Shown in pieces: positions 51,290 to 64,000 of a stretch of 64,000 nt of DNA. The DNA is from a cyanobacterium PCC 7702 (lineage in GTDB: Bacteria > Cyanobacteriota > Cyanobacteriia > Cyanobacteriales > Nostocaceae), in assembly GCA_000332255.1 (NCBI GenBank), contig KB235926.1:2226769-2290768 (forward strand), in the 5' to 3' direction. Position 1 is the stretch's first letter. Every line of letters begins with the position of its first letter. The notes under the pieces were generated by a model. The model did no database searches. It was not told the DNA's origin and saw nothing but the letters and a program-made list of their open reading frames with translations. Made by a program: the position numbers and the translations under genes.

Positions 51290-52825
51290 ATGAAGAGACA
51301 AAAATTATTTAAAATTCCTAATTACTCTGACTTCCAAAATAATTGGATTCTCTGTCTTGTCAGCATTTTAGTAATTTTAATAGCAACAATTTATCCATTT
51401 AAATTTGTACTACCAGAAGATTTTTCTCTTCAATATATTGCTTATCGTTTTCATAACCACAGTACTTTGCAAGACAAGGTAGAAAATATTTTACTATTTA
51501 TGCCTTTAGGTTTTTTTGGTTCTGGTCTGCTACAAAAAATAAGAATAAATTTTCTGGCAGAAATTTTCACAGTTGTATTTGGAAGTGCAGGATTATCAGC
51601 AATAGTTGAGCTTTTACAAGTTTTTTTGCCTAGCAGAACACCCACTCCTGATGATATCATTCATAATACTATTGGCGGTTTTGCTGGTTGGTTATTTTTT
51701 AATTGGTTGATTTCCAAAAAATTTGCACACAGATTAGCGTACTTGACCGACATTAAAAAAAATCAATTGTGGAACAGTATACCAGTATTTGTTCTGGGCT
51801 ATATTTTCTTAACTTTTTTAATTATTACCTTTTGGGAAAGTACAACGAATTTGAACAATTGGAATCCCAACTACCCTTTATTAATTGGTAATGAATTAAC
51901 CGAAAATAGAGCTTGGCAAGGTTATATTTCAGAAGTTGTGATTGTCGATAAAGCTATTGATAGCTCTGAAATCAATCAGGCACTAACTAATAAAAATTAT
52001 TTTCACACCAGAAAAGATTCTCTCCTCGCCTACTATCAATTAGAAGGTCAATATAACTATAAAGATAAAACTGGAAGCATGCCAAAATTAGTGTGGAGCA
52101 ATCAACCTTCACATTTTCAAGAAGGACGGGGAGCTTTAGTCAATTCCAACAATTGGCTGAAAACGGCAACTCCTGTTTATCAATTGAATAAAAGGATATC
52201 TAAAACTTCTGAATTTACCGTTAGTACTATTGTAGCTACTACAGATATAGCTCAAACTGGTCCTGCTCGTATTATCTCAATTTCTCATGATAACCTGCGT
52301 CGTAACTTTACTTTAGGACAGGAAGGAACAACTTTAAATATACGAGTAAGAACACCAGCTACTGGGACAAACGGAAGTGATATACAGATGAATATTCCCA
52401 ACATTTTTACAGACACTAAACCGCACCACATCATTCTTACTTATTCCCGAGCCAACCTTCAGGTGTATGTAGACAATTTTCAAAATTATTACTCATTAAA
52501 TTTACTGCAATTAATGCCTATACAGCATAAGTTGTTTTATTATGTGTTAACTTTTATTCCTTTAGGAATGTACTTAACACTTCTGAGTCTTTTAGTTAAG
52601 AAAAAGCAAATTATCCACCAATGCTTGATAGTCTTTGGTATATTTTTACCTTCTTTGATACTAGAAGCTAGTTTGATGAGCAAAAGCGGTAAGACAATCA
52701 GCTGGAAAAATATATTAATCGGTATATTATTTACGGCTGGAACTGTAATTATACTGAGGATAAGAGCCGCAGCTTTATTGAAAAAAGTAAGTACGAAACT
52801 CGTGCAAAGCTATCCCACTTACTGA
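51290..52825 (+). CDS. VanZ-family membrane protein with LamG-like domain
   Basis: 511 residues. The N-terminal part (about 18-150) is VanZ-like: a first helix, then VENILLFMPLGFFGSGLLQK, AIVELLQVFLPSRTPTPDDIIHNTIGGFAGWLFF. A large extracytoplasmic insert (about 180-400) reads as a concanavalin/LamG-like beta-sandwich (LLAYYQLEGQYNYKDKTGSM, FTVSTIVATTD, HHIILTYSRANLQVYVDNFQ). Two to three more helices close the protein (about 410-500). VanZ gives teicoplanin resistance in enterococci; the role of fused VanZ-LamG proteins is unknown, but a carbohydrate- or lipid-binding surface outside the membrane is likely. It is a single gene ending in a terminator. Confidence 0.85.
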   Translation: MKRQKLFKIPNYSDFQNNWILCLVSILVILIATIYPFKFVLPEDFSLQYIAYRFHNHSTLQDKVENILLFMPLGFFGSGLLQKIRINFLAEIFTVVFGSAGLSAIVELLQVFLPSRTPTPDDIIHNTIGGFAGWLFFNWLISKKFAHRLAYLTDIKKNQLWNSIPVFVLGYIFLTFLIITFWESTTNLNNWNPNYPLLIGNELTENRAWQGYISEVVIVDKAIDSSEINQALTNKNYFHTRKDSLLAYYQLEGQYNYKDKTGSMPKLVWSNQPSHFQEGRGALVNSNNWLKTATPVYQLNKRISKTSEFTVSTIVATTDIAQTGPARIISISHDNLRRNFTLGQEGTTLNIRVRTPATGTNGSDIQMNIPNIFTDTKPHHIILTYSRANLQVYVDNFQNYYSLNLLQLMPIQHKLFYYVLTFIPLGMYLTLLSLLVKKKQIIHQCLIVFGIFLPSLILEASLMSKSGKTISWKNILIGILFTAGTVIILRIRAAALLKKVSTKLVQSYPTY

Positions 52826-54534: not shown

Positions 54535-54596
54535 GTTTGAAGTACTAAAGTACTGATTGCGAACAGTTTGAAGTGCTAAAGTACTGGCTGCGAACA
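54535..54596. repeat. 31-bp tandem duplication at the 3' end of fadE
   Basis: Units 54535-54565 and 54566-54596 (plus strand GTTTGAAGTACTAAAGTACTG..., 31 bases) are 90% identical and directly adjacent. They cover the last codons and stop of fadE. A 31-base duplication shifts the frame, so the C-terminus ends RSQYFSTSNCSQSVL, with the first unit carrying the stop. It appears recent. Confidence 0.8.
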
Positions 54597-57031
54597 GTTT
54601 TTTGTATTTGTGGTGTGGAATGATCTTGCTGATACTCTTCTAGTGTAAATGCATCCACTTCAATAGCGTCATTGCGAGCTACTTGTGCTTCGTGTAGAAT
54701 TTCAGCCTCATGTTTGCTAATTATCCCTGCTTCTAGTGCTGCTGCAATCAAGCGTTCTGGTTTTTGGCGCGGTAATTTAGCGATGTGACTTTTGGCTTTG
54801 ATGGTTTGTAGAATGGTCTCGGCTTGGAACGATAGAACAAAAGCGCGTTCTAAGCGTCCCAATGCTTCATCTGCACTAGTAGGAATGTATATACCTGCAG
54901 TCAGTCTGTCTCGCTGTTCTCCTGGAGTTTGAAGGCTGCGGGCAATTTTACTCCCGAGGCGATCGCAAGGCAATTGACCGATGGGATTGACTCGCCACCA
55001 CCAAGCGATCGGTCCTTGTAACAAAATACCCAGTATTGGTACGGGCATATTACTAAAAATACCCTCAAATCCCTGCTGAATTTGAGCAAAACTGTATTGC
55101 ATAGCCCAGTGTACAAAAGGCAAGTCTTGTGATAAAGAGCCTTCTGCTTCGAATCGCCGTAGGGTAGCAGTTCCTAGATACATCCAAGATAGAATATCAG
55201 CAAATCTTCCTGTTAACTTTTCCCGTCGCTTCAGCGTACCGCCAAAACAAAACAAAGCAATATCTGTTAGAAAAGCGAAGGTAGCAGATGCCCATTGTAA
55301 TTTGCGGTAATATTTGGCTGTTGCTCCACCTGTAAAATTAGCTGCTAGATAGCCGCGGGAAATACTAAGAAAAGCAGCGCGGAAAGCATTACGTATCGCT
55401 AGCCCGACGTGATTCCACAACGCTTGGTCAAAAGCTTTTATGTCTGAGCGTTCGAGAGCGACTATTTCCGAATAGACATAAGGATGGCAGCGAATTGCTC
55501 CCTGGCCGAAAATCATCATCGTTCGGGTCAAAATATTCGCTCCTTCCACAGTAATCGAAATGGGTGTAGCTGTATAAATATTTGCCAAAAGATTTCTCGG
55601 TCCGCGACAGATTCCCGCACCTCCGAGAATATCCATACCGTCATTGATAATCTTGCGGGAAAGTTCTGTGAGGTTGTACTTGGCGATCGCCGAAATTACC
55701 GCGGGTTGCTCACCCTTATCCACCGCACCGCAGGTGTAAGCACGAGCTGCTTCCATCAGATACGTCAACCCCCCAATGCGAGCCAAGGGTTCTTCGATGC
55801 CTTCAAAATAGCCGATGGGCAAACCAAATTGCTGCCGTACTGTTGAATAAGCACCTGTCACTCTTGCTACCAGCTTGGCAACTCCCGTACAAGTAGCTGG
55901 AAAACTTATACCTCGACCAGCTGCCAAGCATTGCATCAGCATTTTCCAACCCTGACCGGCTTGTTCTATACCACCGATAATTTGGTCTGCGGAAACAACT
56001 ACGTCATGTCCTTGAGTAGGTGAATTGTAAAAAGGTACACCCATTGGATCGTGACGCTTTTTCATCAAAATACCAGGTGTATTTGTAGGAATTAAGGCAC
56101 AGGTAATACCTACATCTTCCCCCTGACCCAAGAGATTTTCTGGATCTCGCAACCTGAATGCCAGTCCCAACAAAGTAGCGATCGCGCCCAAGGTAATATA
56201 TCTTTTGTTCCAGTTCAACCGCAGATAAAGTTTGCCATCTTCACCTTTAAACAGTACTCCTTCCGATTTAATACTTGCTGCATCTGAGCCAGCATTTGGT
56301 TCTGTAAGGGCAAAACAAGGAATTTCTTCTCCCCGAGCCAGACGTGGTAAGTAATAATTTTTCTGTTCCGGTGTGCCGTAGCGCAGTAGTAGCTTAGCAG
56401 GTCCTAAGGAGTTTGTTACACCCACAGTGGCAACATAAGTAAAAGAACGAGATGCTAATTTTGTCATCACACAACTGTAGGCAAAGTTGGAAAAGCCCAA
56501 ACCTCCATACTCTTTAGGAATCATCATTCCCAAAAAGCCTTGTTGTTTGAGATAATCCCAAACTGGAGGCGGTAAATCCTTATGACGGTAAATTTCCCAA
56601 TCGCTTGCCATCTGACAAAGTTGTTCTACCGGTCCATCCAGGAATGCTTGCAGTTCCGGTGTTACCTGAGGTAATGGTTCACTTCTTATTCGTTGCCAAT
56701 CAGGTTGACCTGAAAAGAACTCACCATCTATCCAAACGTTTCCCGCTTCTATTGCTGCCCGCTCGGTATCAGAAATTTTTGGTAGTAAATTAAATTTTTT
56801 TATACCATGAAGCAAGGAAGCAGTAAGAAGCGATTGCCTCAGAACAGGCACGTTCAAAATCGCAACTACTATGCCAAATAACGCCCAAATCGGAACAGAT
56901 ACTTGCCATGCTGCCAGTATTAGCGCAAAATATAGCGACCACATCCACAAGGGAACACCGATGTAACCCAGTAACAGAAATAAGACAATGAATGTGGAAT
57001 TAAAAATCGCTGGATGAAGGAGGTTGTTCAT
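54545..57031 (-). CDS. fadE: FadE-type acyl-CoA dehydrogenase
   Basis: First oxidation step of beta-oxidation (acyl-CoA to trans-2-enoyl-CoA). I place the start at the ATG at 57031, preceded by GGAG at a good distance, giving 828 residues. The layout matches E. coli FadE (814 residues): N-terminal hydrophobic helices (about 5-75), acyl-CoA dehydrogenase N, middle and C domains (SLGPAKLLLRYGTPEQKNYYLPRLARGEEIPCFALTEPNAGSDA, LRLNWNKRYITLGAIATLLGLAFRL), the ITVEGANILTRTMMIFGQGAIRCHPYV region with the catalytic Glu, then a DUF1974 C-terminal domain. Last gene of the fad unit, 79 bases after fadA. The 3' end is altered by a tandem duplication. Confidence 0.94.
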   Translation of the reverse strand: MNNLLHPAIFNSTFIVLFLLLGYIGVPLWMWSLYFALILAAWQVSVPIWALFGIVVAILNVPVLRQSLLTASLLHGIKKFNLLPKISDTERAAIEAGNVWIDGEFFSGQPDWQRIRSEPLPQVTPELQAFLDGPVEQLCQMASDWEIYRHKDLPPPVWDYLKQQGFLGMMIPKEYGGLGFSNFAYSCVMTKLASRSFTYVATVGVTNSLGPAKLLLRYGTPEQKNYYLPRLARGEEIPCFALTEPNAGSDAASIKSEGVLFKGEDGKLYLRLNWNKRYITLGAIATLLGLAFRLRDPENLLGQGEDVGITCALIPTNTPGILMKKRHDPMGVPFYNSPTQGHDVVVSADQIIGGIEQAGQGWKMLMQCLAAGRGISFPATCTGVAKLVARVTGAYSTVRQQFGLPIGYFEGIEEPLARIGGLTYLMEAARAYTCGAVDKGEQPAVISAIAKYNLTELSRKIINDGMDILGGAGICRGPRNLLANIYTATPISITVEGANILTRTMMIFGQGAIRCHPYVYSEIVALERSDIKAFDQALWNHVGLAIRNAFRAAFLSISRGYLAANFTGGATAKYYRKLQWASATFAFLTDIALFCFGGTLKRREKLTGRFADILSWMYLGTATLRRFEAEGSLSQDLPFVHWAMQYSFAQIQQGFEGIFSNMPVPILGILLQGPIAWWWRVNPIGQLPCDRLGSKIARSLQTPGEQRDRLTAGIYIPTSADEALGRLERAFVLSFQAETILQTIKAKSHIAKLPRQKPERLIAAALEAGIISKHEAEILHEAQVARNDAIEVDAFTLEEYQQDHSTPQIQKTVRSQYFSTSNCSQSVL

Positions 57032-57109: not shown

Positions 57110-58297
57110 CTAGTTTTGGACTGCAAAGTTCTCAAACACTGCTGCTGCTCCCATTCCACCGCCAACGCACATTGTCACAAGACCGTAGCGAACACCACGT
57201 CGCTTCATTTCGTGGAGAATAGTAGCTGTCAATTTTGCCCCCGTGCAACCTAAAGGATGACCAAGGGCGATCGCACCACCATTGACATTTACAACCTCCT
57301 GATGCAAACCAAGTTTGCGAATCACAGCCAGACTTTGGGCTGCAAAGGCTTCATTGAGTTCGACCAGTCCGATATCATCTAAAGTTAAACCCACCTGCTT
57401 GAGGACTTTTGGCACTGCTTCTACAGGACCGATACCCATAATTTCCGGCGGAACCCCAGCTACCGCATACCCCAACATCCGTCCTAAAGGCTGCACACCG
57501 AGTTGCTCGAGTGCGCGATCGCTCATCACTACTGTCGCTGCTGCACCATCCGACATTTGCGACGAGTTACCAGCCGTAACCGTACCATCGACCCGAAACG
57601 CAGGTGACAATTTAGCTAAAGCTTCTAAGCTAGTATCAAGACGTGGTCCCTCATCTACTTGAAAAACTTTCTCTATCAACTGTAACTTGCCATCTACGTA
57701 CAAATTTTCTCGTAGTTGTAAAGGCACAATTTCTTCAGCAAAGCGGCCTTCGGCAATTGCGGCTAAAGCCTTTTGATGCGATCGCAAGGCAAAGGCATCT
57801 TGATCTTCACGAGAAATGCGATACTGCTGCGCTAAGTTTTCCGCCGTCAGACCCATCGTGGAATAAACTCCGGGATTGTTTGCCAATATCTCTGGGTTCG
57901 GAGCTAAATAATGACCTCCCATGGGAATCAAGCTCATTGATTCAGCTCCGCCCGCAACTATTACTTCTGCTTGTCCTGTTACAATTGCCTGATGTGCTAT
58001 TGCAATGGTTTGCAATCCAGAAGCACAAAAACGATTAACAGTAGTACCCGGTATAGAATCAGGTAAGCCTGCTCGCTGGACTATAACTCGCCCTAAATTA
58101 AATCCCTGTTCAGCTTCCGGAAAAGCACAGCCAAAAATCACATCATCAATGCGAGCTGGATCTAATCCTTTGACTCGCTCAATCGCAGCTTTGGTAACAA
58201 CTGCTCCCATATCATCCGGACGCATGTTGCGTAACGTACCGCGCGGTGCTTTGCCAACGGCAGTCCGAACACTGCTTACAATGTAGGCTTGTTTCAT
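57110..58297 (-). CDS. fadA: Acetyl-CoA acyltransferase (3-ketoacyl-CoA thiolase)
   Basis: Thiolytic cleavage of 3-ketoacyl-CoA to acetyl-CoA and a shortened acyl-CoA. It is 395 residues, normal for thiolases. The nucleophilic Cys is in [10 protein letters not shown] (Cys 91), the catalytic His in [15 protein letters not shown] and the second Cys in [15 protein letters not shown]; all three are present. The ATG at 58297 follows an AGG-type ribosome-binding site. It lies between the FadN-type gene and fadE on the same strand, consistent with one operon. A biosynthetic (PhaA-like) role is less likely given the FadE neighbour. Confidence 0.95.
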
Positions 58298-58455: not shown

Positions 58456-60828
58456 CTAATTTCGCAGTGGCTTTTTCCTTTTGAGCATATGAGCAATCCG
58501 CTCTTGAGTCTTGGGTTGTTGCAACAGCGGTAAAAACTTTTCTCGTTCTAATTGCAGCAGGTATTCTTCATCAACTAAAGCAGGTGCGGATAGTTCTCCA
58601 CCGGTCATCACATAAGCTAACTGTTGAGCGAGGTAGCGATCGTATTCGCTAATAAAACCTCCCTGCTGCATAATGCAGGCAGCATGTTCCAACACAGCGG
58701 CCGCGGGACGCCCCAGGACCATAATGGCATTACGCTTTGGAGGCGGTGTATAGCCCGTTCGTTCCAGACACAACACTTCTTGTTTGGCAACTTTCAATCG
58801 CCAATCTGCGTTCATCACAATTTTAGTTTTGGGTGAGAGAAATCCCAATTCCTGGGCGTGGTAAGCACTATTAGATACTTTTGCCATGCCAATAGTTTCA
58901 AAGGCTTGGCGTAAAAAAGGCTGAATGTGTTGGGGCGATTCACTTGCTGCTTTATCAGTTGCCCAAGTTGCCATACGCATAATACCGCCTGCACCCGGAA
59001 TCAGACCAACGCTGAGTTCTACCAAACCAATATAGCTTTCGGCTGCTGCAACAACGTGCGGACAAGCCATTACTAACTCACAACCACCTCCTAAAACACG
59101 CCCCACAATTGCTGCAACAATAGGTTTGGGGAAATAGTGGATTCTTTGTAGAAGTGATTGAAACTTGACAATGAGGTTGGCTATGCTGGAGTAGTTTCCT
59201 GTTTGTGCCAACATTCCTATTTCTGCCAAATTGGCTCCAGCACAGAAATTCGCACTGTCATTACCAATTACCAATCCTCGAATATCTTCTGTTTCGATAA
59301 TATCCAGGACTGTAGCTAAACCGTTTACTACCTGTAGGCTTAGGGTGTTGCCTTTGGAGCGAAATTCGTACAAAACTACGCCATCTCCTAAATCCAACAG
59401 CGCCGCCTCCGCATTTTGCCACAGTGTTCGTTTTGGATCTGCTTTCAACGCCACCAGCAGTTGCTCCCCGGGTAGACCGCACTGCCTCGTCAAGTTAATT
59501 TCATCTTCCAAAGAAGATAGTGCCGTTGTCTTCGGATAGAAGACAGATTCGCTTCTCAAGTCTTCTGGCTTGTGGGTTTTACTTTTCTCCTCTACCCACT
59601 TTGGCACTGCAATACCAGCAGCTTTCATATCTGTTAGTACTGTTTCAAATCCAAGCGCATCCCAAATTTCAAATGGACCGAGTTCCCAACCAAATCCCCA
59701 GCGCATGGCTTTATCAATATCGGCGGGATTGTCGGCAATTTCGGGAATGCGACTAGCACTGTAGGCCAAGATATTTAAGGTTAATCGCCGGAAAAAGTCT
59801 CCCGCCCGACCTGGGTGTTGGTAGAGAATTTGTAGGCGTTTCCTTAAGTCATGAATTTGACTGAGCGCTTCGATATCTCCTAAGTTCATAGGCTTAGCTG
59901 GTTCGTAAGCCAATGTTTCTGGATTGATAGAGAGTATTTCCTCACCTTGCTTTTTGTAAAATCCTTGACCTGTTTTCACCCCCAAGTTCCCCATTTCTAC
60001 TAGCTTGCGGAGCAATTCGGGAACGCGAAAGATTTCTCTACTTTCATCGTCAGGAATAGCCGGATAAAGGTTATCCGCTACATGCACCAGTGTATCCAAT
60101 CCTACTAAATCGGCTGTGCGAAATGTTGCTGATTTTGGTCGCCCGACTAAAACTCCTGTCAGAGTATCAATTTCTTCAATAGAATATCCCTGCTCTGTTA
60201 AAGCCTGAAGACCGAGCATGGTCGCGTAGATGCCAATGCGGTTGGCAATAAAGTTAGGAGTATCTTTTGCCACTACTACTCCCTTGCCTAAATACAGGCT
60301 CGCAAACCACTGCATTCTTTCCAGAACTTCAGTAGCGGTATTTTTTGTCGGAATGAGTTCTAGCAACTTCAGATAGCGTGGAGGGTTAAAAAAGTGGGTA
60401 CCTAAAAATCGTTTTTGGAAAGATGCAGAGCGTCCCGAAGCAATAGTGTGGATGGGTAAACCACTGGTGTTGGTAGACACGACTGTGTCGTCGCGGATAA
60501 CGCTTTCTATACGTGCCATTAATTGCTGCTTTATAGGGAGATTTTCTACCACCGCTTCGATAACCCAATCCACATCCGCAATTCTGTGAAAATGCTCGTC
60601 AAAATTGCCCAAAATGACCCGACGGGCAGTTTTTTCTGTAAAGAAGATAGGCGGAGACTGTTTTAAAGCTTTTTTGAACGCTGTTTCCACTATTTCATTT
60701 TTATTGCTGCTATTGGCGGGAATGTCTAACAAATGTACGATCGCTCCTGCATTAGCAAGGTGAGCAGTAATTTGGGTTCCCATGACCCCCGCACCACAAA
60801 CTGCAACTGTCCGAAATGGCTTAAACAT
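58456..60828 (-). CDS. fadN: 3-hydroxyacyl-CoA dehydrogenase/enoyl-CoA hydratase (FadN type)
   Basis: Second and third steps of beta-oxidation on one chain. It is 790 residues, close to Bacillus FadN (about 789). The N-terminal NAD domain VAVCGAGVMGTQITAHLANAGAIVHLLD (about 8-35) and catalytic His in GTHFFNPPRYLKLLEL (about 145-160) are intact. The C-terminal hydratase domain (about 470-700) has both acid residues, LGGGCELVMAC and GLVELSVGLIPGAGGIMRMA. Thus it is not the E. coli FadB order (hydratase first), but the dehydrogenase-first FadN order. It is the second gene of the fad unit, 113 bases after the acyl-CoA ligase. Confidence 0.94.
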   Translation of the reverse strand: MFKPFRTVAVCGAGVMGTQITAHLANAGAIVHLLDIPANSSNKNEIVETAFKKALKQSPPIFFTEKTARRVILGNFDEHFHRIADVDWVIEAVVENLPIKQQLMARIESVIRDDTVVSTNTSGLPIHTIASGRSASFQKRFLGTHFFNPPRYLKLLELIPTKNTATEVLERMQWFASLYLGKGVVVAKDTPNFIANRIGIYATMLGLQALTEQGYSIEEIDTLTGVLVGRPKSATFRTADLVGLDTLVHVADNLYPAIPDDESREIFRVPELLRKLVEMGNLGVKTGQGFYKKQGEEILSINPETLAYEPAKPMNLGDIEALSQIHDLRKRLQILYQHPGRAGDFFRRLTLNILAYSASRIPEIADNPADIDKAMRWGFGWELGPFEIWDALGFETVLTDMKAAGIAVPKWVEEKSKTHKPEDLRSESVFYPKTTALSSLEDEINLTRQCGLPGEQLLVALKADPKRTLWQNAEAALLDLGDGVVLYEFRSKGNTLSLQVVNGLATVLDIIETEDIRGLVIGNDSANFCAGANLAEIGMLAQTGNYSSIANLIVKFQSLLQRIHYFPKPIVAAIVGRVLGGGCELVMACPHVVAAAESYIGLVELSVGLIPGAGGIMRMATWATDKAASESPQHIQPFLRQAFETIGMAKVSNSAYHAQELGFLSPKTKIVMNADWRLKVAKQEVLCLERTGYTPPPKRNAIMVLGRPAAAVLEHAACIMQQGGFISEYDRYLAQQLAYVMTGGELSAPALVDEEYLLQLEREKFLPLLQQPKTQERIAHMLKRKKPLRN

Positions 60829-60941: not shown

Positions 60942-63107
60942 TTAAATATTCAAGGATTGTGCAAATGCAGGACAATCAGCTTGAGGTATGGAAGGACAAC
61001 AAGAAAATAACAGGCTATGTTGTTCTTCTACCTTCCCTGTCTGGGTAATCTCGTGTTTTTGTGTTCCCGCGTCTGCGTACATGGCATCAATTTCTTTGGC
61101 AAAAGCTTTGAGGATGTTTGCACGTTTTAGTTGTCGTTCCGGCGTCAACATGCCATTTTCTACCGTCAGGGTGGCATTGACTAGTTGGAAACGCTTTACT
61201 GTTGACCAGTGTGGTAAATGACAATTTGCTTGGTCGACTAATGCTTGATAAGTGGCAATAATACACGGATGCTTGAGCAACTCTTGCGTTGGTAGATTTA
61301 TTCCTATGGTCGAAGCATAGGAATGCAGGCGGTCTAGATTGGGGAAAATTAGCATGGCGCAGAATTTGCGCTCTGCTCCCACAGCTACTGCCTTTGCTAC
61401 CAAAGGAGATTGTTCTAACTTACTTTCTATTGGTTGTGGTGTCACGTACTTACCTGTGGAGAGTTTAAATCGGCTTTTCTTCAAACCAGTAATTTTGAGA
61501 AAACCGTCAGCGGTAAATTCTCCAAGGTCGCCTGTGTGCAACCAACCGTCTTTGTCGATCAACTGTTGAGTAGCTTCAGGGTTTTTGTAGTAGCCTGGAG
61601 TAATGTAAGGACTTCTAGTGAGGATTTCTCCATCTGGAGCGATCGCAACCTCTACCCCAGCAATTGGTACGCCTACGGTTCCAGAACGGTTGAATTGTCC
61701 GCGATTGCAAGTAACGGCGGAACTTGTCTCGGTCAAACCATATCCTTGCCAAATTCTGATTCCTGCTGCAGCAAACAAGTTTGCTATTTCTGCTTTTAAT
61801 GCTGCACCTCCACAAATAAGGTATTTGAGACGACCCCCAAATACTGACCGCCATTGCCAAAACACTAGCTTGTCTGCCAACTTCAACATCAAAGCATATC
61901 TTCCTCTGGGTGGATTTCCTATTTCATAACGTTTGGCAAGGTTGAGCGCCCAATTGTAGATGCGCTTGCGAAATGCTATCTCGCTCCATCCCGAAGCAGA
62001 AACAGAAAACTGTAAAGGTGAAAATTTCCAATCCAAGGAAGATAAACGAAATCTCTGCATTTTTGAGTGGCGCAAGCGTGGAATTTGAGTTGCAAACCAG
62101 CGGATGCTAAAAAGGTTATGTTTGGCTTTTGTTTGAGCGATCGGCTTGGTTGCTTGAGCTGCTTGTTCCAAAATTTTGTTATAAATCCTTTCTAGTAATA
62201 GGGGTACTGTGGCAAATACAGTTGGTTGCACTTGTTCGAGATGTTTGATGACCTGATAAGGGGTAGTAAGATAAATGCTGTGCCCGTAGCGAATGTGACC
62301 GTACAAAAAGACGCGAGCAAAAACGTGCGTCAAGGGTAAATACGAAAGCGCAACTTCCTTAGCACCAAATTCTAAATCGGGAATACCGCTAAACATCGCT
62401 AAGGCATTACCAGAAAGGTTTTCGTGGGTCAGCATCACTCCCTGCGGCTTTCCCGTAACTCCAGGAATATAAATAATAGTAGCTAGATCGCTAGCTGCTA
62501 GTTGAGACCGCAGCAGCTGCTGCTTGCTTTGTGATAATAAAGCCTGTCCTTTGGCACGGATTTCTAAAAGCGAAAATACTTGAATTGCTGGCGGTAATTC
62601 CGACCATTGTGGCTGTTGTGAGTACTGGTTTTGTTGTCCATCGGTATCAGCAACGATCGCTATCTTTAAGTGGGGTGTAGAGTGCAAGTAAGGAGCAATC
62701 TGAGAAAGCAAGTTCAAATCAGAAACAATCAGGACTTTTGCTTGCGAATGCTGCAAAATAAAGATGATGTTCTCTAAAGTCTGGGTTAGGTCAATAGGTA
62801 CATCCACCAAACCAGCTAGCAAGCAACCCATGTCAGCAATGCAGAAGTCAACATCGCTGTGCATCAACAAGGCAACGCGATCGCCTTTCTCTAACGCCAA
62901 ATCCACTAAAGAAAGTGCCACTTCCCAAGCAGCCTTTTGCAATTCTTGATTGGATAGAGCTTGCCAACCCTTTTTTGTCCATTCGTTCAAGGCCTGGAAG
63001 TTGGGGTGGCGATCGCATGCTTCCTCCAATAAAGAAGGTAAAGTCCGCCCCAATAGAACTTCTCCTGGGTTAGGCAGAGCTTTATAAGTCTGAACTGACC
63101 ACAACAT
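60942..63107 (-). CDS. fadD: Long-chain acyl-CoA ligase (AMP-forming)
   Basis: Activates fatty acids with ATP and CoA, the entry step of the operon. The start is the ATG at 63107 (a TTG four codons upstream is the alternative), giving 721 residues, longer than the roughly 650 of cyanobacterial Aas. Conserved motifs: YGLTETSSAV, LHTGDLGEF, and the catalytic Lys in FKLSTGKYVTPQPIE. The nucleotide P-loop reads IYIPGVTGKPQGVMLTH where YTSGTTGKPKGVMLTH is usual, so Ser, Thr and Lys positions differ; activity may be reduced or altered. The last 45 residues after IDAMYADAG look non-homologous. First gene of the fad unit. Confidence 0.9.
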   Translation of the reverse strand: MLWSVQTYKALPNPGEVLLGRTLPSLLEEACDRHPNFQALNEWTKKGWQALSNQELQKAAWEVALSLVDLALEKGDRVALLMHSDVDFCIADMGCLLAGLVDVPIDLTQTLENIIFILQHSQAKVLIVSDLNLLSQIAPYLHSTPHLKIAIVADTDGQQNQYSQQPQWSELPPAIQVFSLLEIRAKGQALLSQSKQQLLRSQLAASDLATIIYIPGVTGKPQGVMLTHENLSGNALAMFSGIPDLEFGAKEVALSYLPLTHVFARVFLYGHIRYGHSIYLTTPYQVIKHLEQVQPTVFATVPLLLERIYNKILEQAAQATKPIAQTKAKHNLFSIRWFATQIPRLRHSKMQRFRLSSLDWKFSPLQFSVSASGWSEIAFRKRIYNWALNLAKRYEIGNPPRGRYALMLKLADKLVFWQWRSVFGGRLKYLICGGAALKAEIANLFAAAGIRIWQGYGLTETSSAVTCNRGQFNRSGTVGVPIAGVEVAIAPDGEILTRSPYITPGYYKNPEATQQLIDKDGWLHTGDLGEFTADGFLKITGLKKSRFKLSTGKYVTPQPIESKLEQSPLVAKAVAVGAERKFCAMLIFPNLDRLHSYASTIGINLPTQELLKHPCIIATYQALVDQANCHLPHWSTVKRFQLVNATLTVENGMLTPERQLKRANILKAFAKEIDAMYADAGTQKHEITQTGKVEEQHSLLFSCCPSIPQADCPAFAQSLNI

Positions 63108-63519
63108 TTTGCCTGACAAGAGTTTAAAACTCTTTCCTTTACTAATACTTTTTGGAAATTTACAAACGATAACTTAAATTACATGCAATTTTTCGTTGTT
63201 AACTATTCATCCACAATAATTAACAAATAATTTCCTACCTTTTTATGTTATTTCTAAGGCTATTCCAGTCAGCTTGGATAACCATTCATCCAATTTGCTG
63301 TCTTGCTTACGTGCCATAATTAGATATTTAACCTGGATGCTAGCTTTTGATACCTAAGTCCCTAACCCTGAGCTATTTCTCTCTGACAGTAATTATATTT
63401 TTTAGACTTCGGCTCTGTCAGACCTAATTGTCTTTAAAGTATGTACTTAGTACATAATATTAATTTAGATCGGGATGGGGATCAAATTCCACCTTTGTAT
63501 CTTTTTCGCAAAACTACGC
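63108..63519. other. Promoter region of the fad operon
   Basis: About 410 AT-rich bases with the operator-like palindrome at 63118-63134, a possible -10 (TATTAG on the minus strand, 63147-63142) just ahead of it, and another TATAAT-like box near 63387-63396. No small gene was seen. Confidence 0.5.
63118..63134 (-). promoter_or_regulatory. 17-bp palindrome just upstream of the fad operon start
   Basis: AAGAGTTT and AAACTCTT flank a single central base, a perfect palindrome 10 bases upstream of the acyl-CoA ligase ATG. A TATTAG -10-like box lies 7 bases upstream of it, so a bound protein would cover the transcription start. This is the typical place for a TetR- or GntR-type fatty-acid repressor operator. 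As RNA it could also form a hairpin next to the ribosome-binding site. Confidence 0.5.
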
Positions 63520-63999
63520 CTATAAATTCATAGTTTTAGGCTGTAAAGAGGGAATTTTTATTTGACAAACTAATGGCTGATGATTTGTTTCTCTATGCAA
63601 ATGTTTTTCCAGCCAATTTCCCAAGTCTACCAACACATCTTGATAATTGATATCCAAATGTAAATCGTGGTAGTCACCAGGATAAACATGGCATTCTTTA
63701 TCTGCAAAGGTCACTTGTTCGAAAAAAGCTAAACTACCCTCTGGAGGTGTGACTAAGTCCTCACAACTATGCAAAATTAACAAAGGAACTTTTAAATCAG
63801 ATGCATGAGCTTCCACCCAATTCTTGGCAGCAAAAAATTCTGTAGCCAATCGGGCACTACTGTACTCATGCCGCAAAGGATCTTGAGAATGGGCAGTAAG
63901 TGCTTTGGAATTTGGCGAATTTGCACTGCGTTTAATACCAACCTTAAGGCTGAAACGCGGCCAAACTCGTGAGAGCATTAGCCCCAGTGCAACTTTCAA
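63520..63999 (-). CDS. Alpha/beta hydrolase, monoacylglycerol-lipase-like (partial, runs off right edge)
   Basis: The last 159 codons of a gene that continues beyond the window. The visible part is the C-terminal half of a lysophospholipase/monoacylglycerol lipase-type fold: DLKVPLLILHSCEDLVTPPEGSLAFFEQVTF with the catalytic Asp, and ECHVYPGDYHDLHLDINYQDVLVDL with the catalytic His. The nucleophilic Ser must lie outside the window. It is on the same strand as the fad genes and 412 bases upstream of them, so it could feed fatty acids to the acyl-CoA ligase, although it is probably a separate transcript. Confidence 0.78.
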   Translation of the reverse strand: MKVALGLMLSRVWPRFSLKVGIKRSANSPNSKALTAHSQDPLRHEYSSARLATEFFAAKNWVEAHASDLKVPLLILHSCEDLVTPPEGSLAFFEQVTFADKECHVYPGDYHDLHLDINYQDVLVDLGNWLEKHLHRETNHQPLVCQIKIPSLQPKTMNL

Positions 64000-64000
64000 A

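Follow-up and report, generated by a model that had tools for sequence, protein, structure and literature searches.

Mammalian very-long-chain acyl-CoA dehydrogenase (VLCAD) uses electron-transfer flavoprotein (ETF). For FadE of Escherichia coli, one article states that no ETF partner has been identified and considers that the enzyme might reduce quinones directly (PMC11495604). According to another, no ETF system is known that serves fatty-acid growth specifically, and the electron-transfer role proposed for the FadE C-terminus is without experimental support (PMC9329746). Cyanobacteria are said in two publications to lack β-oxidation (PMC7379126; PMC10830646). We analysed a fadE gene located in 64,000 nucleotides of DNA from the cyanobacterium PCC 7702 (contig KB235926.1 of assembly GCA_000332255.1); this whole stretch is called the window, and coordinates are positions within it, 1 being its first letter. 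The gene closes an operon for a predicted β-oxidation pathway, and the main value of this operon is that FadE is retained in ETF-free lineages. The features of FadE are the following:

54545..57031, minus strand: fadE, acyl-CoA dehydrogenase of the long ACDH_C (PF09317) type, 828 residues (Pfam and NCBIfam)
56795..57013, minus strand: N-terminal region of FadE, residues 7-79, predicted to be in the membrane (four helices in the AlphaFold model, two hydropathy peaks)
55532..56614, minus strand: acyl-CoA dehydrogenase core of FadE, residues 140-500 (PF02771, PF02770, PF00441; VLCAD/ACAD9-like fold)
55544..55546, minus strand: Glu496 of FadE, putative catalytic base
54647..55495, minus strand: C-terminal ACDH_C domain of FadE, residues 513-795 (PF09317, E 2.8e-97)

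The frame has 828 codons on the minus strand, the plus-strand reading of the same segment gives 40 stops, and an upstream TTG start in the list of open reading frames (ORFs) would lengthen the protein to 845 residues. Its Pfam layout is Acyl-CoA_dh_N (140-235), Acyl-CoA_dh_M (239-336), Acyl-CoA_dh_1 (359-500) and ACDH_C (513-795), the last of which we take to be the domain formerly named DUF1974. The long FadE is single-copy in the genome, where the sole other match is a 398-residue frame of the short acyl-CoA dehydrogenase (ACAD) kind with 27% identity. FadE passes the subfamily model PRK09463 (1056 bits for a cut-off of 600), misses the strict NCBIfam model FadE_coli (910.7 against 1300) and matches the Staphylococcus FadE model weakly (63.6 against 600). 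Glu496 is invariant in the 41 aligned FadE sequences and lines up with the EG-motif glutamate of ACAD9 and VLCAD, which is presumably the catalytic base in those enzymes. With the three ACAD domains, PF09317 and the conserved glutamate, acyl-CoA dehydrogenase activity is predicted for this protein. The first-pass annotation, made from the letters alone, had described it as following E. coli FadE almost domain for domain, and this held: E. coli K-12 FadE (b0221, from the MG1655 record) carries all four of the Pfam domains listed above at nearly the same positions, with a length of 814 against 828 residues, a hydrophobic N-terminus as well, and 47-48% identity (47% over the alignment).

The same annotation saw no ETF genes in the window and proposed searching the genome for etfAB and for ETF-quinone oxidoreductase. 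Neither search returned a match: the 100% complete own genome contains no ETF (PF01012) and no ETF-quinone oxidoreductase (PF05187, searched in this genome only). An ETF hidden outside the window was thus rejected, and PF01012 is likewise missing from all 26 FadE-bearing Cyanobacteriia genomes examined (0/5 with the own genome included, 0/7 and 0/14). These 26 carriers correspond to 25 distinct genomes, G418 and G615 having an identical FadE and being taken as one, and Tolypothrix FACHB-123 stands outside the count. The PF01012 search itself was positive in 10 of 14 control genomes; ETF was found in four genomes of f30, a family belonging to another class of the phylum, in one Balneola and in one Achromobacter, and in five of the six non-cyanobacterial genomes with the same operon (the Rhodothermota/Bacteroidota group), the exception being the metagenome-assembled genome (MAG) with locus L057.

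The FadE-bearing Gammaproteobacteria gave a comparable picture, with 41 of 73 genomes without ETF over the cut-off. The 73 are those of at least 2.6 Mb among 116 FadE-bearing genomes, the 43 smaller ones lying outside the search; 33 of the 73 have a match at E 0.001 and 32 over the cut-off, G698, with its sub-cut-off match only, being counted as lacking ETF. It is unlikely that incomplete assembly alone would account for so many ETF-less genomes. Because FadE is kept in ETF-less Cyanobacteriia and Gammaproteobacteria alike, it is probably independent of ETF, that is, it probably needs none.

The structural data concern the N-terminus first. The annotation's N-terminal membrane helices are borne out by hydropathy, with hydrophobic segments at residues 8-26 and 46-64, and by the AlphaFold model, in which residues 7-79 are predicted as four helices. 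Across 95 FadE sequences, 70 have two N-terminal hydrophobic segments and 89 have at least one, and this region would anchor the protein in the membrane. The model is confident (mean predicted local distance difference test score of 89.6, predicted template modelling score of 0.90, 40 rows), and over residues 98 to about 710 it resembles long acyl-CoA dehydrogenases: a Bacillus anthracis ACAD (Z 32.6, root-mean-square deviation (rmsd) 2.7 over 538), VLCAD (Z 31.8, rmsd 2.6 over 518) and ACAD9 (Z 31.5, rmsd 2.2 over 507). The top rows in Foldseek and VIA-align are VLCAD, ACAD9 and other dehydrogenases.

These results bear on the idea that FadE could be an acyl-CoA oxidase, its FADH2 being reoxidised by O2 to H2O2, a product tolerable in a cell which makes O2 and carries peroxidases. 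The lack of ETF in the own genome and in the other carriers would agree with such an oxidase, and one study reports a rise of cellular H2O2 when E. coli FadE is strongly expressed and likens the enzyme structurally to ACOX-1 (PMC11495604). The membrane-type N-terminus of 89 out of 95 sequences would, however, be needless for an oxidase, the best structural matches are dehydrogenases, and losing the energy as peroxide would presumably be wasteful; we consider the oxidase unlikely.

The other genes of the operon, together with the hydrolase gene that precedes them, are:

57110..58297, minus strand: fadA, 3-ketoacyl-CoA thiolase, 395 residues (PF00108, PF02803; NCBIfam acetyl-CoA C-acyltransferase)
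58456..60828, minus strand: fadB, 790 residues, hydroxyacyl-CoA dehydrogenase N-terminal and enoyl-CoA hydratase C-terminal (PF02737, PF00725, PF00378)
60942..63119, minus strand: fadD, long-chain acyl-CoA synthetase, 725 residues (PF00501, PF23562)
63520..64000, minus strand: 3' part of an alpha/beta hydrolase gene running off the window, 301 residues in full (PF12146 on the full protein, taken from the genome)

The hydrolase is probably a (mono)acylglycerol or phospholipid lipase. The conserved unit reads hydrolase-fadD-fadB-fadA-fadE, with fadE last. Besides the window, 21 cyanobacterial loci show the order fadD-fadB-fadA-fadE, 20 of them distinct (L041 and L162 are the same contig); L048 shows fadB-fadA-fadE up to the end of its stretch, and four loci (L044, L047, L050 and L051) are truncated at contig ends. 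In the own genus, and likewise in G393, G403, G407 and G185, the gene immediately before fadD encodes the hydrolase. In G193, hydrolase and FadD form a single frame of 1021 residues (L025:16142-19207; Pfam hydrolase 48-278, AMP-binding 330-799), a fusion which links lipid hydrolysis with acyl-CoA formation. In G403, two neighbouring frames of 313 and 376 residues (L160:6716-8851) stand in place of an intact fadD, possibly through a frameshift or an assembly error.

This conservation is relevant to the proposal that another soluble carrier (ferredoxin, flavodoxin or some other protein) could take the place of ETF in linking FadE to the electron transport chain. Such a carrier would be compatible with everything in the sequence and with the retention of an operon in cells without ETF, but among the genes of the window only the hydrolase and fadD-fadB-fadA-fadE recur across loci (the survey followed the window's genes, genes peculiar to other loci lying outside it), and we regard a substitute carrier as rather improbable.

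The scheme that we favour, by a modest preference, is that of a working β-oxidation operon with a membrane-bound FadE which, without ETF, would deliver electrons to plastoquinone; its expression, activity, membrane insertion and quinone acceptor are what we infer from the computed features. The lipase-like hydrolase would release fatty acids from membrane lipid, its presumed substrate, and FadD would convert them to acyl-CoA. FadE, as a membrane-bound VLCAD-like dehydrogenase, would then oxidise acyl-CoA to enoyl-CoA, and its reduced FAD would most likely pass the electrons directly to the plastoquinone pool, shared in cyanobacteria by photosynthesis and respiration. FadB would carry out the hydration and the subsequent dehydrogenation, FadA would release acetyl-CoA, and the latter could enter the glyoxylate shunt in the host genus. 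A broader proposal, to which we give slightly less than even credence, is that the whole long-FadE family consists of ETF-independent, membrane-embedded acyl-CoA:quinone oxidoreductases, which in cyanobacteria would channel electrons from the breakdown of membrane lipids directly to plastoquinone, for example to cover a lack of energy under far-red light or in darkness.

Several points weigh against the plastoquinone scheme. We identified no quinone site in FadE, and the case for this particular enzyme is computational throughout. Completeness is stated, at 96-100%, for 12 of the 26 carriers, and no value is given for the other 14. ETF is rare in the class as a whole, being present in 17 of 291 Cyanobacteriia, so that its absence from the carriers is expected by chance, without enrichment, and shows only that FadE is kept without ETF. 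Short ACADs also exist in ETF-less cyanobacteria (the own genome and G386), and the lack of ETF is therefore not specific to FadE. Finally, E. coli, in which FadE works, has ETF homologues according to one source (PMC9329746). The ETF-bearing Cyanobacteriia include G177, G332, G426 and G435, of families f27, f61, f68 and f69.

The distribution of FadE is patchy. PF09317 occurs in 9 of 386 genomes of the phylum, five from the same class as the window (G000, G211, G060, G185 and G193) and four from another class (family f30). A search of 60 close relatives found the full-length protein in the genus (its three genomes), elsewhere in the family (four genomes) and elsewhere in the order (one genome). 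In the Gammaproteobacteria, the class of an Achromobacter genome, 116 of 185 genomes carry the long FadE. A contig scan with an eight-sequence alignment yielded 586 candidates, of which the best 80 were considered, so that nearer relatives may lie beyond these. Among the best 80, the first 16 rows are 15 cyanobacteria and one Rhodothermales MAG, followed mostly by Rhodothermota, Planctomycetota, Balneolota, Bacteroidota and Bdellovibrionota at 52-60% and then mostly by Pseudomonadota at 48-52%. The long form had been called characteristic of Proteobacteria, a description that is too narrow for a family also present in Rhodothermota, Balneolota, Bacteroidota, Planctomycetota, Bdellovibrionota, Nitrospirota and others. 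Two relatives without the long FadE (L038 and L039) have a short ACAD of about 400 residues adjoining a 290-residue hydroxyacyl-CoA dehydrogenase-like frame; this pair, we assume, resembles methoxymalonyl-ACP biosynthesis and would be another use of ACADs in a class mostly without ETF.

Concerning the origin of the operon, the FadE tree contained 95 rows, L029 (322 residues) and L098 (580 residues) being left out as too short and L038 and L039 as short ACADs. A branch with a support of 99 in the Shimodaira-Hasegawa-like approximate likelihood ratio test (SH-aLRT) separates the 27 cyanobacterial rows from all others. E. coli FadE belongs to a group of 26 rows (21 Pseudomonadota together with Nitrospirota, Eiseniibacteriota and f30 rows) set off by a branch of 0.42 with support 100; this group holds 21 of the 27 Pseudomonadota rows, E. 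coli included, and the six others (three Rickettsiales, a Lysobacteraceae MAG and two Proteobacteria MAGs) are in the other half with Bdellovibrionota and neighbours. Midpoint rooting puts the cyanobacterial FadE with the Rhodothermota-Bdellovibrionota side. The f30 FadE sequences (L026-L028; L029 was the one too short for the tree) group with Alphaproteobacteria and Eiseniibacteriota rows, which, together with the ETF of the f30 genomes, indicates a history separate from that of the other cyanobacterial FadE.

The partner proteins were informative as well. In a table whose cyanobacterial rows include f30, FadE identity to the window is at best 61% (median 59) for Rhodothermota and 57% (median 50) for Pseudomonadota. 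Median FadA identity is 66% in Rhodothermota (3 rows) versus 36% in Pseudomonadota (13 rows), and for FadB the values are 55% (3 rows) versus 36% (5 rows). In both the FadA and the FadB tree, branches supported at 100 separate the side of the window and Rhodothermota from Pseudomonadota, and these identities and branches decide against a proteobacterial operon. FadA rows below 360 residues and FadB rows below 640 residues, or aligned over fewer than 600, were left out, and the latter filter means that FadB proteins of swapped domain order are mostly absent from the FadB tree. Six rows of the Rhodothermota/Bacteroidota group lie inside the cyanobacterial ones in the FadA tree (supports 91-92), while the FadB and FadE trees show a separate cyanobacterial clade. 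The domain order of FadB itself goes in the same direction: the window protein has hydroxyacyl-CoA dehydrogenase at 7-292 and enoyl-CoA hydratase at 491-633, the reverse of the proteobacterial order, which is also the order seen in the gammaproteobacterial locus L102. Models of the E. coli FadB/FadJ type split into two pieces on it, its N-terminal part matching the second half of the model, and among the NCBIfam rows shown Staph_FadB is the only end-to-end match (665 bits, below the cut-off of 999).

The first-pass annotation had read the long FadE as a sign of transfer from Proteobacteria, followed by amelioration. Acquisition of fadE from that source would fit the shared domains and the 47-48% identity with the E. 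coli protein. A tree rooted on short ACADs, moreover, makes the cyanobacterial clade sister to the E. coli-type clade (SH-aLRT 90), which speaks against the grouping described above; this rooting was not relied on because the outgroup branches reach 10 changes per column. In neither the 95-row nor the outgroup-rooted tree is cyanobacterial FadE nested within Pseudomonadota, all three proteins are nearer to those of Rhodothermota, and FadB differs in domain order, so that a proteobacterial source seems very improbable and a recent transfer from Proteobacteria was rejected.

The part of the claim that stands is transfer as such, given the patchiness of FadE and its conflict with rpoB. A tree joining FadE to other cyanobacteria through vertical descent had been named as the contrary outcome; the single cyanobacterial clade was recovered, and vertical inheritance alone was rejected. 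For 25 carrier genomes, FadE and the single gene rpoB (both under LG+F+G4) share 6 of 22 splits, among which are those of the window host's family (7 genomes), of its genus and of a Pleurocapsales trio, and approximately unbiased tests reject the rpoB topology for the FadE data (p ~1e-92) and the FadE topology for the rpoB data (p 0.0002). Only unrooted rpoB comparisons were used, since the three f30 outgroup genomes landed inside the cyanobacteria. The shared splits and the mutual rejection indicate a long residence of the operon within several families, with additional movement between cyanobacterial orders. On balance, we lean towards the view that the cyanobacterial operons form a single lineage, which is not of the E. 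coli type but is related to the operons of Rhodothermota/Bacteroidota, and we assign no direction to any exchange.

Composition and neighbours add little to the question of origin. GC content is 0.452 in the operon and 0.425 in the remainder of the window, and the GCGATCGC density of the operon is 1.05/kb, against 0.92/kb for the window. The GC of the operon, its GC at third codon positions (GC3) and its GCGATCGC density show no foreign signature and are compatible with amelioration; the GCGATCGC motifs, from which an old acquisition had been suggested, are indeed present. The flanking genes had been called typically cyanobacterial and are, by Pfam, a ylqF-like GTPase, an aldehyde dehydrogenase and a thiamine pyrophosphate (TPP) enzyme. 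The ylqF gene was not found in 19-kb stretches of two sister species of the genus; as it is not kept beside fadE there, the flanks are uninformative on origin. Elsewhere in the window, a protein gene at 51290-52825 has a GC of 0.33 and a GC3 of 0.27, clearly lower than the window mean of 0.43.

As for physiology, malate synthase is present in all three genomes of the host genus and absent from the remaining 22 FadE-bearing cyanobacteria that were tested, and isocitrate lyase adjoins it in the own genome and in G387, at both of which the locus was read. The corresponding feature of the own genome is:

L163:2381-5608 (G000:C1, near 30-34 kb): isocitrate lyase and malate synthase, glyoxylate shunt

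For Chlorogloeopsis fritschii PCC 9212, a glyoxylate shunt is reported in one article (PMC11546870), and the genus of the window may be Chlorogloeopsis or one near to it. In a study on strain PCC 9212, four consecutive β-oxidation genes are up about 10-fold after 48 h of far-red light; in rfpBC mutants the rise is 15- to 70-fold. The authors link the far-red induction to a reduction of thylakoid membranes (PMC6424891). These observations have to be considered together with the possibility that the operon only trims or salvages unusual acyl chains, derived from natural products or alkanes, at so low a flux that electron disposal hardly matters. The patchy distribution of FadE would suit this function, as would the recycling of fatty acids by acyl-ACP synthetase, without degradation, described for other cyanobacteria in two papers (PMC10830646, PMC11546870). 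Set against it are the completeness of the cycle, the attached lipase-like gene (once fused to FadD), the glyoxylate shunt of the host genus and the far-red induction in C. fritschii (PMC6424891), and we judge salvage to be improbable.

No paper on a cyanobacterial fadD-fadB-fadA-fadE operon or on the distribution of ETF-less FadE was found in literature that excluded bioRxiv and included few subscription journals. The operon contradicts the published statement that cyanobacteria lack β-oxidation (PMC7379126), and it bears on lipid turnover and on the design of biofuel strains.

Among the known systems, the locus shares its gene order with the fadD-fadB-fadA-fadE operons of Rhodothermota/Bacteroidota MAGs (L053, L069, L072, L074 and L103; L057 shows fadB-fadA-fadE). 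They share with it 60-69% identity in FadA, 52-61% in FadE and the FadB domain order (tested in L053), the latter being also that of FadB from the Staphylococcus fad operon; no hydrolase was seen beside their fadD, most of these loci starting inside that gene, and five of the six hosts have ETF, unlike the window host. The four consecutive β-oxidation genes of C. fritschii PCC 9212 (UYEDRAFT_05553-05556; PMC6424891) likewise stand together in a cyanobacterium and may be the same operon, and the glyoxylate shunt reported for that strain (PMC11546870) is shared by the window genus. Mammalian VLCAD and ACAD9 are the nearest solved structures by sequence and among the nearest by fold, with the same two-part chain and C-terminal helical domain, but their identity is 21-25% and the matches start at residue 98 or later, leaving the N-terminal region uncovered. 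E. coli FadE falls in a different clade, and its gene stands alone whereas that of the window sits in an operon; E. coli also has ETF homologues and the window host has none. Having several such homologues, E. coli is a poor test of the FadE acceptor. Cyanobacteria with a complete β-oxidation operon and no ETF offer a clean natural system for this question, and many Gammaproteobacteria likewise hold FadE without ETF.

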